Source of the DNA: Leptolyngbya sp. BC1307
Lineage (GTDB): Bacteria; Cyanobacteriota; Cyanobacteriia; Phormidesmidales; Phormidesmidaceae
Reading direction: 5' to 3'
Length of the DNA: 33,995 nt
NCBI RefSeq assembly: GCF_002286735.1
Contig: NZ_NRTA01000041.1
Coordinates: 1-33,995 of the forward strand
Each line of letters begins with the position of its first letter. Position 1 is the stretch's first letter. Below are positions 24,978-33,854 of this stretch, one piece after another. A program made the translations under genes and the position numbers. The notes beneath the pieces are model-generated. The model did not search any database, was not told where the DNA came from, and was given only the letters and a program-made list of their open reading frames with translations.

Positions 24978-26486
24978 CTAGATAAATTTCAGCTTACGTG
25001 AGGCATAGGCGCACATACGCAGCAGTACGAGCCCTTCTTTGACATGGGCGATATTGGAGCTGCCGTAGCTGCGGGGCTGATAGCGAATCGGCACTTCGAC
25101 CAGATGCAGATTGAGCTTGGCAGCGCCGAAGAGCAGGTCAAAGTCGCCAAAGGGATCGAAGTCGCCAAAATAGCTGCGGCCAGCGGTCAGTCGCTGATAG
25201 TCTCTGCGCCAGAGTACCTTAGTGCCGCACAGGGTGTCTTTAAGTGGCTGCTCTAGCAGAAAGGAAAACAGCAGGGCAAAGGTTTTGTTCGCCAGGGTAT
25301 TGAGCCAGGGCATGGCCTTGCGGCTGCGCGGGTAAAGCAAGCGAGAGCCGTTGATAAATTCGCCTTGACCCGTGGCGATCGCCTCAAAAAAATGCGGTAA
25401 GTCCTCGGGCGGCACCGTCAGGTCGGCATCTAAAATCATCAGCACATCGCCAGTCGCCTCGGCGAACCCCAACCGCACGGCATCGGCTTTACCCTGACCC
25501 GTCTGCTGAAAGGCTTTGAGAATCAGCGGGCCGCTGTAGCTCTGCAGGGTCTTTTGAATGGTTTGCCAGGTGTTGTCTTGAGAGTGACCTTCGACAAAAA
25601 TGACTTCGGTGCGAGAGCCCAGTTGCGGTAGGCGAGCGATCGCACTCTCAATGTTGCCCGCCTCATTTCGCGCTGGAATGACGACCGAACAGCTTGGCGC
25701 ATCTGCAGTGATAGCAGCGCGTCTAAAATCTGGTCGAGCAACGACGTAGTTTGTCAGGCACAGGTGCTTGATTCCCGGCAGCGGTGCCAGGTAGCGGTTA
25801 ATCCAGCGAGACAGACCAGGAATACGCTTAGGCGAAAGAAAACGCCGCCCGCGCTTAAGGGGAATGTAGCCGGTAATTGAAAGCAGATTAGCGACATCAT
25901 CCATTGAGAGCCAATTTTGCGGCGGCTGCGGGCGGCGCAGACCAACGGCCTCGCCCAGCTGCAGCAAAGGCTCCCAAAGATAGTTGTGAAAGGTGATGAT
26001 CAGCCGGGTCTGAGGCGTACAAAAAGGCTTCAGACGGCTAAACGCTGTTTGAATATCGCTGAAGTAGCTGGCGGCGTTGGCGCAGATAATGTAGTCAAAG
26101 GTCTGCGGTTCATCCACCGGCCCTTCAATCGGGCCGTCAGACAGATAGCCGATTTTCTGCGGGGTGAGGGTTTCTGTATCGGCGCAGTAGAAGCGTAGAT
26201 GCGGGTATTTTTGCCGGGCGATGTTGACAGCAACCGGTGAAATGTCGATCCCCACACCTACGCCAGGGTAAGTTGCCTGCAGCAGGTCACCAGTGCCGCA
26301 GCCAATCTCTAGCACGCGGCTACCGGCGGGAATCAGGAACTGATGCAGGCGGTCCAGGTCTTGGTAGTAGTAGCGGTTGCGCGATCGCCACCCATCTAGC
26401 TGCGGGGCACAGCGGTTGAAATGGCTCAGCACTGCCTGCTTATGAGTCTGACGAGGATGAGCTAACGGAATAGTGGTGTCAATCAC
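24978..26486 (-). CDS. Bifunctional SAM methyltransferase - family 2 glycosyltransferase fusion
   Basis: The 502-residue protein joins two domains. Residues about 15-250 are a class I methyltransferase with VLEIGCGTGDL (58-68) and GVGIDIS, and a KRGRRFLSPKRIP linker follows. Residues about 263-490 are a GT-A glycosyltransferase of the DPM1/GT2 type with CSVVIPARNEAGNIES, the GKADAVR loop (332-338) and DAD (353-355) binding the sugar nucleotide. GT2 enzymes of this kind make polyprenyl-phosphate sugars. It is downstream of a GT39 gene on the same strand (64 bases), which would use such a donor. The start is a GTG at 26486. What is methylated is unknown. Confidence 0.85.
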   Translation of the reverse strand: MIDTTIPLAHPRQTHKQAVLSHFNRCAPQLDGWRSRNRYYYQDLDRLHQFLIPAGSRVLEIGCGTGDLLQATYPGVGVGIDISPVAVNIARQKYPHLRFYCADTETLTPQKIGYLSDGPIEGPVDEPQTFDYIICANAASYFSDIQTAFSRLKPFCTPQTRLIITFHNYLWEPLLQLGEAVGLRRPQPPQNWLSMDDVANLLSITGYIPLKRGRRFLSPKRIPGLSRWINRYLAPLPGIKHLCLTNYVVARPDFRRAAITADAPSCSVVIPARNEAGNIESAIARLPQLGSRTEVIFVEGHSQDNTWQTIQKTLQSYSGPLILKAFQQTGQGKADAVRLGFAEATGDVLMILDADLTVPPEDLPHFFEAIATGQGEFINGSRLLYPRSRKAMPWLNTLANKTFALLFSFLLEQPLKDTLCGTKVLWRRDYQRLTAGRSYFGDFDPFGDFDLLFGAAKLNLHLVEVPIRYQPRSYGSSNIAHVKEGLVLLRMCAYASRKLKFI

Positions 26487-26550
26487 AGAAGTTTGAAGGA
26501 GATCGTAGTGGGCACAGCGACTATAGATACACAGTGAGTGCGGATATAGA

Positions 26551-28203
26551 CTATAGGCGAATTAGCTGCCAATCGCGAAGCTGAGCCATCGTTTCGTAAG
26601 GGCGATCGCTCAACGCAGTCAGGTCGGCATTAGGGCTCAGCCAGGCATAGGTGCCGGGCGGTATCTCGGCGATTGGGCGATTGAGCTGACCAAGCTGAGG
26701 CGTATAGAAGCTGAGCAGGGTAAACGTCTTGTGGGCTTCTGGTGGCCACTCTGCTGACCCGGTAATAAAGCTGATCGGCTGATCGCTGACAATCGGCGCG
26801 ATTGCCGGCGAAGCCAGCGCTGCCTTCAAGTCTGAGCTGTAGTTACCAAATAAGCCTGCTAACCCTAGCGTGCCAATCGCTAGCCAGGCCGGGAGCAGCC
26901 AAGTAGCCAGCCACTTTTGAGGCTGAGACATAAATGCAGGCAGCGCTGCCCAGCCCACTCCTAAAATCAGCGCTGCCGGTGCATAGGGGCGAATTTCGCT
27001 CAGCAGGTCGGGCACTGGGGTCAGGATGACAGCACCTCCCCAGGCGAAGATAGCCAGTGCAGCTAAAAGCACGCCTAGTGCAGAGAAAGCGTAGCTCAGG
27101 AACCGCCGGGGCCAGCGAACCGGCCAAATAGCAATTTGGTGCAGGGCGATCGCCGCAAAAACTGCCATAAACGGATGCAATTGCAACGTGTAATAGGGGG
27201 TTTTCGTCGGGAAACCTGTCAGCAGCCCCGCCAAAATGAACGGATAGAGCAGTAGCCAGTAGTGCGGATAGGAGGGAGCCGATTTAGGAATTGATCGCCA
27301 TAGGCTGCGCAGCACCAGCACTGCCCCAATCAGCGCAAACAGCGCCCAGGGCAGCATATTCACCGGAATATTCCATAGGTAGTAAAACGGCCCGCCATCA
27401 GCATGAAACGACTCGTCGCTCAGCTCACCTAGCTTGCCAAACATGGAGGCAAACACCAGATCGCCATACTCGGCCAGGCTCAGCCCTAGCCAAAGCGCCC
27501 CTGCTCCCACACCGACGAGCAGTCCGCTATATAAACCTGGGTTGCTCAAGTGACGATGGCGACGATGATGGAAAACCAGGTAGGGCAGTAGGGCCAAGGC
27601 TGGCAGCGCAATCATAAAGGTTTTGACTAAAAATCCTAGCCCCAGCGTCAAACCCGCTAAAAAGCCGAAGGCGATGCGCCAACGAGCGTAAATTTCTGCC
27701 TTGAGTAACGCCCAAATGCCTAACAGCTCTACGCTCACCAGCAGCATGTCTTGCGTGGCTAAATGGCCGTACTGCGCCCATAGAGAACCCACCATCAGCA
27801 GCAGCCCAGACAGCAGGCCCAGCCGCCGGGCATATTTGGCATAGGACCAGGGCTGGGCGGCAATCAGGGTTCTGCCAATATCGTAGGTGAGCAAGACCGA
27901 ACCTATACAGGCCAAAACGCTGGGTAACCGGGCAATGCGATCGCTCACCCCAAACAGCCGATACCCCACCAGTATCAGCCAGTTCAGCAAAATACCGTGA
28001 GAGTAAGTCGGCGTCCCCCACCACTGCCGCGCCAGCCAATTGCCCGACTCCAGCATAAAGCGGCTTTCAGCGGCGTAGTTGCCCTCATCGTGGGCCATCA
28101 AGCTCATTTGCAGCAGGCTACAGGTGAGCAGCAGGCCGGACCAGGCTAATAGCAGCAAGATATCTCGGCGGGCGGTAGCCCCATAGGGAGAGGGAGACTT
28201 CAT
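26551..28203 (-). CDS. GT39-family membrane glycosyltransferase (ArnT/PMT-like)
   Basis: This polytopic protein of about 550 residues has some ten to twelve hydrophobic segments and the PMT_2-type first loop with the conserved acidic pair in AHDEGNYAAESRFM. GT39 enzymes transfer a sugar from a polyprenyl-phosphate donor to lipid A, proteins or polymers on the periplasmic face. The ATG at 28203 (MKSPSPYGATA) is preferred; an upstream ATG at 28242 adds 13 residues but almost touches the previous gene. The downstream MT-GT2 fusion could provide the lipid-linked donor. The acceptor is unknown. Confidence 0.82.
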   Translation of the reverse strand: MKSPSPYGATARRDILLLLAWSGLLLTCSLLQMSLMAHDEGNYAAESRFMLESGNWLARQWWGTPTYSHGILLNWLILVGYRLFGVSDRIARLPSVLACIGSVLLTYDIGRTLIAAQPWSYAKYARRLGLLSGLLLMVGSLWAQYGHLATQDMLLVSVELLGIWALLKAEIYARWRIAFGFLAGLTLGLGFLVKTFMIALPALALLPYLVFHHRRHRHLSNPGLYSGLLVGVGAGALWLGLSLAEYGDLVFASMFGKLGELSDESFHADGGPFYYLWNIPVNMLPWALFALIGAVLVLRSLWRSIPKSAPSYPHYWLLLYPFILAGLLTGFPTKTPYYTLQLHPFMAVFAAIALHQIAIWPVRWPRRFLSYAFSALGVLLAALAIFAWGGAVILTPVPDLLSEIRPYAPAALILGVGWAALPAFMSQPQKWLATWLLPAWLAIGTLGLAGLFGNYSSDLKAALASPAIAPIVSDQPISFITGSAEWPPEAHKTFTLLSFYTPQLGQLNRPIAEIPPGTYAWLSPNADLTALSDRPYETMAQLRDWQLIRL

Positions 28204-28251
28204 GAGGACTCTTTGGAAAGAGGAGAAATGAGGAATGGGCATGCACCCACA

Positions 28252-29331
28252 TCATTCCAGCAGTTGGCTTTGCGCCGCTGGCGGCTTCATCTGACGGAAC
28301 CCACTGCGCCGCAGAATCCGCTTCTGCCGCTGCCGGGCAAATGCTTGCAGGTCTACATTGCGGTCGGTCTCGTCGACAATCTCGCCAGTCAGCACCTCCA
28401 GCGTATCTTCTAGCGTGACCACGCCCGAAACGCCGCCGTACTCATCTACCACTACCATTAAATGCTCTCGCAGCGACTGAAAGGTTTTGATCAGCCGGTC
28501 GGTGCGCTCTGTGTCAGGAACGTAGTTGACCTGGCGCATCAGGTTTTTGATGGGGGCTGCGCCTTGGCCCTGGACAATGGCGGCGAGTAGTTCTGCCTTT
28601 AGCGCTACGCCGATGACATGATCTAGGTCCCTATCAATTACCAATATTCGCGTGTGCTGAGAGGCAATAATTTCGTCTTGAATATCTCGCAAGATAGCGT
28701 CACCCGGTAGAAAGGTAATCGCTACCCGAGGCGTCATGATATCGGCGGCTTTTAGGTCGTTGAGACGAAATACCCGGTCAATCATTTCGACTTCGTCGTC
28801 TTCAATGAGCCCTTCCTGGTAGCCGAGTATGGTCAGTAGCTTGATTTCTGCCTCATCGGTGATGGGCCGCTTGATGCCTTTGGTCATAGGCGCGGTGATA
28901 TGCTCTAGCAGCCAGATTAAGGGCGTAAAGAGAAGGGTCAAGCCTGTGACGGGGATGGCAACGGTTAGTCCAATTGTTTCGGCATAGCGTTCGCCAACGG
29001 TTTTGGGTAAAATCTCGGCTAGTAAGATGATGGCAAAGGTCAGTGCGGCTGAAAAGATGCCCAAGCCCGCATTGTCAAAGACAGCAGCGGCCAACCGACC
29101 GACGACGATGCTGCCGACAATATTAAAGATGTTATTGAGAATGACGATGCAGGCAATCGGTCGGGAGACGTGCTGGCGAATGGTGAGAAGGGCGATCGCC
29201 GCCGGGCTCGGTCGATTTTGGGTGAGCTGCCTAGCTCGCAGCAAAGGCAGTGAGAGTAACGCTGTTTCGGTGCCTGAGCACAGGGCAGAGCCAATAATGA
29301 CGATCAAGACAGCGATCACAAGTTGAATCAT
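28252..29331 (-). CDS. CNNM/DUF21-CBS membrane protein (HlyC/CorC family)
   Basis: The 359-residue protein has the CNNM transmembrane domain (residues about 1-180, with GSALCSGTETALLSLPLLRARQL at the start and AEILPKTVGERYAE) followed by a CBS pair (about 195-325; DIMTPRVAITFLPGD and VVVDEYGGVSGVVTLEDTLE). These proteins are linked to Mg2+ or Co2+ efflux and resistance. A C-terminal CorC_HlyC domain is missing, and the protein ends in a basic tail. It may head the minus-strand unit leading to the GT39 and MT-GT2 genes and is divergent from the ABC gene. Confidence 0.88.
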   Translation of the reverse strand: MIQLVIAVLIVIIGSALCSGTETALLSLPLLRARQLTQNRPSPAAIALLTIRQHVSRPIACIVILNNIFNIVGSIVVGRLAAAVFDNAGLGIFSAALTFAIILLAEILPKTVGERYAETIGLTVAIPVTGLTLLFTPLIWLLEHITAPMTKGIKRPITDEAEIKLLTILGYQEGLIEDDEVEMIDRVFRLNDLKAADIMTPRVAITFLPGDAILRDIQDEIIASQHTRILVIDRDLDHVIGVALKAELLAAIVQGQGAAPIKNLMRQVNYVPDTERTDRLIKTFQSLREHLMVVVDEYGGVSGVVTLEDTLEVLTGEIVDETDRNVDLQAFARQRQKRILRRSGFRQMKPPAAQSQLLE

Positions 29332-32969: not shown

Positions 32970-33368
32970 TTATCTAGATTTTTGCTCTTCGACATAGCGT
33001 TTGATGGTCTCTCCGGAGACATTGCCCGCTGTCGATACAAAGTAGCTGCGAGTCCAAAAGCTAGGCATCTTAGTCTTTAGCCAGGGGTACTCCTTCCTCA
33101 GAGCATGAGAGGAGTACCCTTTAACCTGATGGATAACCTGAGCTGGTGACAGCTTCGGCAGGGTGTGCGCGTTCAAGTGAACGTGGTCATCATGCGTTTC
33201 CAGGGCTATCACCTCACCGCCAATGCCCGCTACAGCCTCATATATAAGCTCCTTCACTCGGCCATCTAACGCGCCAGTCAGCAGCTTCTTTCGCCTGCGT
33301 ACCGTCCATACAAAGTGATAGTTCAATAGTGAAACTGACGTGTTCTCATGCCGGTATTTCTGGCCCAT
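32970..33368 (-). CDS. tnpA: IS200/IS605 Y1 transposase TnpA
   Basis: The 132-residue protein is a Y1 HUH transposase. The HUH motif is HVH at 62-64 (THDDHVHLNA), and the catalytic Tyr125 lies in TIKRYVEEQ, as in the family. LLNYHFVW at 14-21 and QVKGYSSHALRK also match. TnpA excises and inserts the single-stranded element at short target sites. The start at 33368 (MGQKYRHEN) is preceded by GAAG; a longer start at 33404 is less likely. It is divergent from the tnpB fragment. Length is close to the usual 130-150 residues, so it may be functional. Confidence 0.93.
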   Translation of the reverse strand: MGQKYRHENTSVSLLNYHFVWTVRRRKKLLTGALDGRVKELIYEAVAGIGGEVIALETHDDHVHLNAHTLPKLSPAQVIHQVKGYSSHALRKEYPWLKTKMPSFWTRSYFVSTAGNVSGETIKRYVEEQKSR

Positions 33369-33410
33369 ATCTTCATAGTGATCAGGTCTACGAGTTGCTA
33401 TCATAGACCT

Positions 33411-33854
33411 ATGGCAGACGTAACCACCACCCTAAAGCTAAAGTTTTTGGCGTTGAACAACGTCAAAGCTTCTATGTTTGCTGACACTGTAGATGCGTCT
33501 ACGGAATTGGCAAACAGCTTGCTCAAGGTGCCGTTTGCAGCGCGTAAAAAGCTCACTACGGCAATGGTAACGACTGGCCTCAAGTCTGCGCTCTCTAATC
33601 AGGTGATTCGTATCCTGAAAGGGAAGGCGGGGAAGCGGGTCAAGTCGTTCAAGGTGTTCTGGCCTGAAGTGAACAAACAGAACTGGAAAATCTGCAAGGT
33701 AGGTGAAACCTACTCTCTCAGCTTTCCGACTATTCAAGGCGTTAAGCGGGTGCCGATTGCAGTGCATCCGCATTTTGAGCAGCAGCTAGACGAGATTATC
33801 AGCGGTGACCTAGAGAAAGGGACGCTGAAGCTGATGTGCCGGGTACCAACTTAA
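33411..33854 (+). pseudogene. tnpB: TnpB (IS605 OrfB) N-terminal fragment
   Basis: The frame starts at ATG 33411, 42 bases from tnpA and divergent. The 147 residues (MADVTTTLKLKFLALNNVKA, later KVPIAVHPHFEQQLDEI-type strands) match the N-terminal wedge and beta parts of TnpB, an RNA-guided nuclease related to Cas12. A full TnpB has about 350-400 residues with RuvC Asp/Glu residues and a zinc ribbon; all of these are missing. The frame stops at TAA 33854, and downstream frames to the window end show no RuvC motif. It is a deleted, nuclease-dead remnant. Confidence 0.75.

Follow-up and report, generated by a model that had tools for sequence, protein, structure and literature searches.

We analyzed a stretch of 33,995 nucleotides from Leptolyngbya sp. 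BC1307 (hereafter, the window), which is one entire contig (NZ_NRTA01000041.1) of a 4.9-Mb genome, and focused on two neighboring genes on its reverse strand. The upstream gene (26551-28242(-)) encodes an ArnT-like (GT83-type) integral membrane glycosyltransferase of 563 amino acids; position 28203 is an internal ATG at its residue 14. After a gap of 64 bp follows a gene with a GTG start (24978-26486(-)), identified as an open reading frame (ORF) with Pfam methyltransferase and Glycos_transf_2 matches, whose 502-amino-acid product fuses a methyltransferase (MT) to a glycosyltransferase (GT) of the GT2 family. An earlier note, made from the letters alone, had described an MT-GT2 fusion beside a membrane glycosyltransferase as a possible lipid-linked sugar module, and both genes were present where it had placed them, the end point 28203 that it gave being this internal ATG. 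The fusion aligned over its full length across cyanobacteria and other phyla, which argues that it and its ArnT-like neighbor are more than a chance pair of ORFs.

An AlphaFold2 (AF2) model of the fusion was built from 64 alignment rows (predicted local distance difference test [pLDDT] 88.1, predicted template modeling score [pTM] 0.88). Pfam methyltransferase domains lie within residues 41-205, and a class I S-adenosylmethionine (SAM) methyltransferase domain was assigned to about residues 19-253 (25728-26432(-)) by fold matches such as 1vlm (Z 21.7, 200 residues aligned, root mean square deviation [rmsd] 2.8). SAM-binding motif I (VLEIGCGTG, residues 58-66, 26289-26315(-)) was recognized by glycine conservation in a set of 81 fusion rows, 71 full length and 10 truncated. 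Glycines 62, 66, and also 79 were retained in 71/71 full-length rows, and glycine 64 in 63, being altered in the other eight. The N-terminal half is thus predicted to have the class I SAM methyltransferase fold with its motif I glycines, and the modeled fold is silent on the substrate.

The remainder of the protein appears to be a single GT2 domain of the lipid-phosphate glycosyltransferase type (residues 259-501, 24984-25712(-)); both Pfam and the AF2 model give one GT domain, not two. Glycos_transf_2 matched residues 267-405 (E 7e-23), and the best NCBIfam match, AglJ, scored 84 bits, below its cut-off. Ranked by sequence against the PDB, this half matched DPMS (1.8e-16), ArnC (5e-10), the archaeal GT2 6yv7 (2.7e-5), GtrB (6e-5), and GpgS (3e-4), and a profile search gave the same leading matches. 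Its model superposed on DPMS 5mlz with Z 25.3 and rmsd 2.3 over 225 residues, followed by ArnC (Z 24.0), GtrB (Z 21.2), and GpgS and MpgS (about 19-20), while Foldseek placed ArnC first. The GT2 half therefore appears nearest to the lipid-phosphate sugar synthases of the DPMS/ArnC/GtrB type, the group to which the earlier note had tied its proposal, even though a shared fold alone shows no function. Active-site and ligand residues of PfDPMS (PMC5526996) were mapped by hand through the PDB sequence alignment. PfDPMS E12, D89, D91, and R117 correspond to E275, D353, D355, and R382, conserved in 81/81 rows, with the DxD motif D353-A-D355 at 25422-25430(-) (aligned with D89/D91 at a hand-derived offset of 22). 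Of 19 GT2 positions followed, 15 were identical in all 81 rows. The C-terminal membrane anchor that the earlier note proposed to look for was not found, a simple hydropathy count giving no membrane helix. The GT2 model ends at the equivalent of PfDPMS residue 230. Such an anchor would not be needed, since PfDPMS lacking residues 230-352 is reported to be active and mostly membrane-targeted (PMC5526996).

The partner was modeled by AF2 from 12 rows (pLDDT 82.5). Its sole Pfam match at E 0.01 was PMT_2 (PF13231, E 2e-17), the PF02366 PMT profile giving none at that threshold. ArnT, which belongs to CAZy family GT83, was the sole NCBIfam match (40.8 bits versus a cut-off of 567) and, at E 0.01, the sole relative by sequence in the PDB; it also had the closest fold (5f15, Z 31.8, rmsd 4.5, 493 residues aligned). 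On these grounds the predicted protein is better called ArnT-like than GT39, the family to which the earlier note had assigned it. Of the ArnT motifs RYA and YFEKP, the latter with an essential lysine (PMC5377068), the tyrosine of RYA is kept (Y56, invariant in 12/12 aligned partner rows), whereas YFEKP is not. Alignment of motifs across ArnT-like proteins places TYSHGIL at this position of the first loop (residues 79-85, 27988-28008(-)), so that the window has TYSHG, and most partners have DR or DK. A relative in genome G215 (locus L036) is likewise of the SH/TH type rather than DR/DK.

At least 567 relatives of the fusion were confirmed, of which the best 80 were analyzed as loci and 64 of these, window included, were aligned for identities. 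Full-length identity was 51-73% in cyanobacterial rows, 41-42% for two genomes from a different class within the phylum, and 48-55% in other phyla. The fusion is widespread in bacteria, with identities of about 50% in many phyla. A RefSeq-style name exists for such bifunctional proteins. The PMC literature searched, whose coverage was incomplete, yielded no account of the fusion.

Distribution of the two genes was analyzed in a phylum sample of 292 genomes, with both proteins searched at 1e-30. The fusion family was found in 26 genomes (16 full length, 10 truncated), ArnT-like proteins in 48, and both in 21. ArnT-like matches thus occurred in 21/26 fusion genomes versus 27/266 others (Fisher p 2e-14) or, by genus, in 11/16 with the fusion versus 14/100 without it (Fisher p 1e-5); these values ignore tree structure, and kinship of the genomes overstates their significance. 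The genes shared a strand and lay no more than 3 kb apart in 14 of the 21 co-occurring genomes and did not in seven. Family f20 (Prochlorococcus/Synechococcus) was surveyed separately at 1e-25: among 151 genomes, the fusion was found in 27 and ArnT-like proteins in 41, with a partner in 26/27 fusion genomes versus 15/124 others. The fusion gene of the sole miss (G355) lies 635 bases from a contig end. In this family, 22/27 fusion genes had a same-strand ArnT-like gene upstream within 3 kb, and linkage recurs in several lineages. The two genes co-occur far beyond chance, as the earlier note's proposal of a joint module had led one to expect.

The ArnT-like proteins were then compared by subtype. 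The 53 matches of the phylum sample were sorted by visual comparison of aligned motifs (two fragments by the last motif only). One type, "QD/QN ... YY" (hereafter, the partner type), comprised 21 matches in 21 genomes, and the fusion was present in 21/21. The first loop of these proteins has DR in 18, SH/TH in the window and G215, and EK in G177. The other type, "HK/EK ... PD ... HY" (the HK type), comprised 32 matches. All 27 genomes with the HK type alone lacked the fusion, while G022 and G072 have both types together with the fusion. Both belong to family f7, in which the partner type was found only in these two fusion genomes, beside the HK type. In f20, every fusion genome with an ArnT-like match had the partner type (26/26, one represented by a fragment that lacks the last motif), and 14/15 others had the HK type; classes for eight of these 26 and one of these 15 (G223) were already available from the phylum sample. 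The exception, G402, is an 85% complete genome whose ArnT-like gene stops 1.5 kb short of a contig end, and in two sister genomes the fusion begins 2.6-2.8 kb beyond the ArnT-like gene.

An extra check covered, at 1e-20, 21 genomes whose fusion loci show no adjacent partner. The 13 genomes of the cyanoA group, whose fusions are 61-73% identical to that of the window, yielded ArnT-like matches in 11, and 11/11 were of the partner type, with DR in eight, DK in two, and EK with QD/YY in one. In a quick tree computed without the signature columns, 34/34 partner-type rows fell on one side of a branch (Shimodaira-Hasegawa-like approximate likelihood ratio test [SH-aLRT] 100), with 33 HK-labelled rows and L235 (HK by motif) on the other; one ORF is counted twice in this tree, and partners of truncated copies are excluded from it. 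No GT2-like ORF was present in the 1.5-kb flanks of 20/20 HK-type loci examined. Judged by motifs and tree, cyanobacterial ArnT-like proteins split in two, with one subtype tracking the fusion, and this subtype match is the strongest new evidence for a module.

The observed basis of such a module consists of intact genes, fair-to-good predicted folds, co-occurrence, and a specific partner subtype. We favor, with some reserve, the reading that the pair forms a glycan-modification module of the ArnC/ArnT kind, with two or three components and a built-in methyltransferase. Its core of lipid loading, flipping, and transfer, leaving methylation aside, is the more secure part and is probably correct, whereas the chances that the fused domain methylates the sugar are about even. 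The fold, the active-site residues, and the partner suggest that the GT2 half would use a nucleotide-sugar donor to load its sugar onto polyprenyl phosphate on the cytoplasmic side. In the weakest step, the methyltransferase might methylate the sugar either ahead of loading or directly after it, in the manner of WsaE with rhamnose; among sugar methyltransferases fused to a GT, WsaE is the precedent (PMC2943079). A flippase would turn the lipid-sugar over, and at the periplasmic face the ArnT-like partner could attach the sugar to an acceptor in the envelope, possibly lipopolysaccharide or lipid A. This core corresponds to the lipid-linked sugar module of the earlier note, which held up on the GT2 relationships, co-occurrence, and subtype once its GT39 label was given up. 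Lipid A galacturonate has been reported for marine Synechococcus (PMC4515613); we considered it as the product and set it aside, as no evidence here ties galacturonate to the partner subtype. Passages of PMC10811720 name surface glycosyltransferases in phage resistance, and nothing in them identifies this pair.

The layout resembles ArnC-ArnT, in which a GT2 synthase works with a GT-C transferase, and the predicted folds match both (ArnC and ArnT, with the Z scores given above); unlike in that system, the synthase here is fused to a methyltransferase and has no membrane-anchor helices that we could find, and the partner lacks the YFEKP motif of ArnT with its essential lysine, having TYSHG instead. 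It also resembles the three-component extracytoplasmic glycosylation systems (GtrA/GtrB/Gtr; pentofuranose, PMC11127046), the precedent for the module layout, in pairing a lipid-phosphate sugar synthase with a GT-C enzyme and, in L081 and G294, in having an adjacent flippase-like PF03706 gene; it differs from them in that no flippase gene was recognized beside the window pair and in that the synthase bears a methyltransferase. Few cyanobacterial envelope glycans have been linked to genes, and the pair is a specific, testable candidate present in several cyanobacterial lineages, including picocyanobacteria, with a sequence signature predicting which ArnT-like enzyme matches which donor synthase. 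A further idea, which we regard as speculative and rather doubtful, is that of a widespread pathway, with no description in the papers searched, in which the sugar is methylated during loading on the lipid carrier and a dedicated ArnT-like subfamily, with DR/DK in place of HK in the first periplasmic loop, reads the methylated donor. If so, the donor code would be legible from sequence, and the truncated Prochlorococcus-like lineages described below would have dropped the methyl step and kept the decoration.

Several observations weigh against the module. The catalytic-domain fold, DxD, and R117 of PfDPMS are kept, whereas in the window G300, T357, V358, N396, and N400 stand in place of its ligand residues D39 (guanine contact), Q93, H94, R131, and S135 (G300, N396, and N400 in 81/81 rows). 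With these five residues replaced, the predicted donor and acceptor contacts differ from those of PfDPMS; the fusion is not a bona fide DPMS, although it resembles this class, and GDP-mannose is probably not the sugar donor. The ArnT-like partner in the window carries SH in place of the DR or DK seen in most partners. Some fusion genomes had no ArnT-like match: 5/26 of the phylum sample at 1e-30 (G105, G133, G193, G106, and G240) and, at 1e-20 in the extra check, 6/7 of the cyanoB group (the seventh having the HK type), 2/13 of the further cyanoA genomes, and the picocyanobacterial metagenome-assembled genome of L080. In other phyla, PMT_2 exceeded its cut-off in 1/12 hand-picked multi-helix neighbors (L103). 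Beside the window pair, no flippase gene was recognized, two PF03706 genes lying elsewhere in the genome. Ten PMT_2 proteins over cut-off and other clusters of GT2 and PMT_2 genes in the same genome make other pairings possible.

Those additional genes also bear on a first alternative, namely that the fusion is a WsaE-like chain-building and capping enzyme, whose GT2 half would extend a glycan growing on a carrier by one sugar for the methyltransferase to cap, and that the ArnT-like neighbor takes its donor from another GT2. Like the fusion, WsaE has an N-terminal methyltransferase joined to glycosyltransferase activity, and it 2-O-methylates rhamnose (PMC2943079); a Wzy_C protein beside locus L108 and sugar-epimerase-like ORFs near 15 fusion loci (by eye only) would fit such a role. 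WsaE, however, has two rhamnosyltransferase domains where the fusion has one GT domain, whose nearest folds are lipid-phosphate synthases and speak for lipid-phosphate transfer, not for extension of a chain, and one partner subtype tracks the fusion. We consider this alternative unlikely.

A second alternative, to which we give a similarly low probability, is that the methyltransferase half is vestigial or acts on a non-sugar target such as the lipid carrier or a protein. It draws on the eight full-length rows with altered glycine 64 and, above all, on ten genomes of 1.6-1.7 Mb (genus g34 of f20, Prochlorococcus-like) in which the homolog has about 363 amino acids. The SAM-binding half, motif I included, is missing in 10/10 of these copies, a further point against a methylating module, while the GT2 active-site residues stay. 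A search of five truncated-copy genomes at E 0.01 turned up no separate copy of the missing half in any of them (5/5). An ArnT-like partner is nonetheless present in 10/10 and adjacent in eight, and mainly because the partner gene adjoins them, the truncated copies likely descend from a fused ancestor. They sit on a very long branch, and a clade with picocyanobacteria is allowed (approximately unbiased test, p-AU 0.51), with insecure placement. Their N-terminal part shows weak homology to the methyltransferase's C-terminal portion (hhalign E 0.0019, probability 14%). Prochlorococcus record L099 has the full-length form, and L117 runs off its contig. Since the pair persists in these ten genomes without the SAM-binding half, methylation is not essential to it everywhere; sugar loading and transfer are likely the core, with methylation an added, dispensable step, and the truncated copies offer a natural comparison for the effect of the methyl step. 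Against this second alternative stand glycines 62, 66, and 79, kept in all full-length rows across phyla, and the shared history of the halves. A tree of the GT2 part (residues 262-502) gave the groups pico, cyanoA+pico, cyanoB, and other, and one of the non-overlapping methyltransferase core (residues 12-160) recovered mostly the same groups, so the two halves seem to have traveled largely together. Resolution in the core tree is poor, and two rows, one each from the groups cyanoB and other, stray into cyanoA/pico, which counts against the module. A second open fragment of 97 amino acids in G193 (C66:120346-120624) is 58% identical to the last 93 residues of the fusion.

The weakest alternative, lineage-wise retention or loss of an envelope gene set in which fusion and partner share no pathway, could draw on the kinship of the genomes, the seven unlinked phylum-sample pairs, and the 11 unlinked cyanoA pairs (a set chosen for fusion loci without an adjacent partner), and is rendered quite improbable by linkage that recurs in several lineages, by the partner type of f7 appearing only in G022 and G072 beside the HK type, and by HK-type flanks free of GT2-like ORFs.

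Returning to the module, we looked among neighboring genes for further components. In a picocyanobacterial locus (L081) the gene order is ArnT-like, an 828-amino-acid protein, MT-GT2, and PF03706, and L080 and L082 have a protein similar to the L081 PF03706 protein in the same place; in G294 the order is ArnT-like, MT-GT2, PF03706, with no gap. PF03706 corresponds to the membrane portion of lysyl-phosphatidylglycerol synthase, an enzyme that flips a lipid, and such a protein would suit the role of lipid-sugar flippase in step with its position in some picocyanobacteria. Multi-helix proteins of 828-873 amino acids lie between the ArnT-like gene and the fusion in L081, L082, L083, L085, L086, and L088; the L081 member, the one searched against Pfam, gave a weak, sub-cut-off GT-C match. 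A pairing of fusion and GT-C enzyme general to all phyla was considered and found unsupported, as iterated hidden Markov model matches were few and PMT_2 exceeded its cut-off only in the L103 neighbor noted above.

Among the genes that neighbor the fusion, the largest cluster consists of a further small methyltransferase-like ORF, found at 26/75 loci, window included. Nineteen of 29 such ORFs lie directly downstream of the fusion, in loci from L087 on (e.g., L109:2653-3378); one member (L109) was searched against Pfam. Elsewhere in the window genome (G000), GT2 and PMT_2 genes cluster on C13 (about 68-70 kb), C35 (3-8 kb), and C21 (34-41 kb), two of these clusters with PF03706. A CNNM/CBS-domain gene (28252-29331(-)) lies 9 bp upstream of the ArnT-like gene and is perhaps co-transcribed with it; it was rejected as a third partner, matching no ORF of 80 fusion loci except the window's own. 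Farther along the window, an ORF at 33348-33854(+), with no Pfam match at E 0.01, diverges from and partly overlaps an IS200-like transposase gene (PF01797) at 32970-33404(-).

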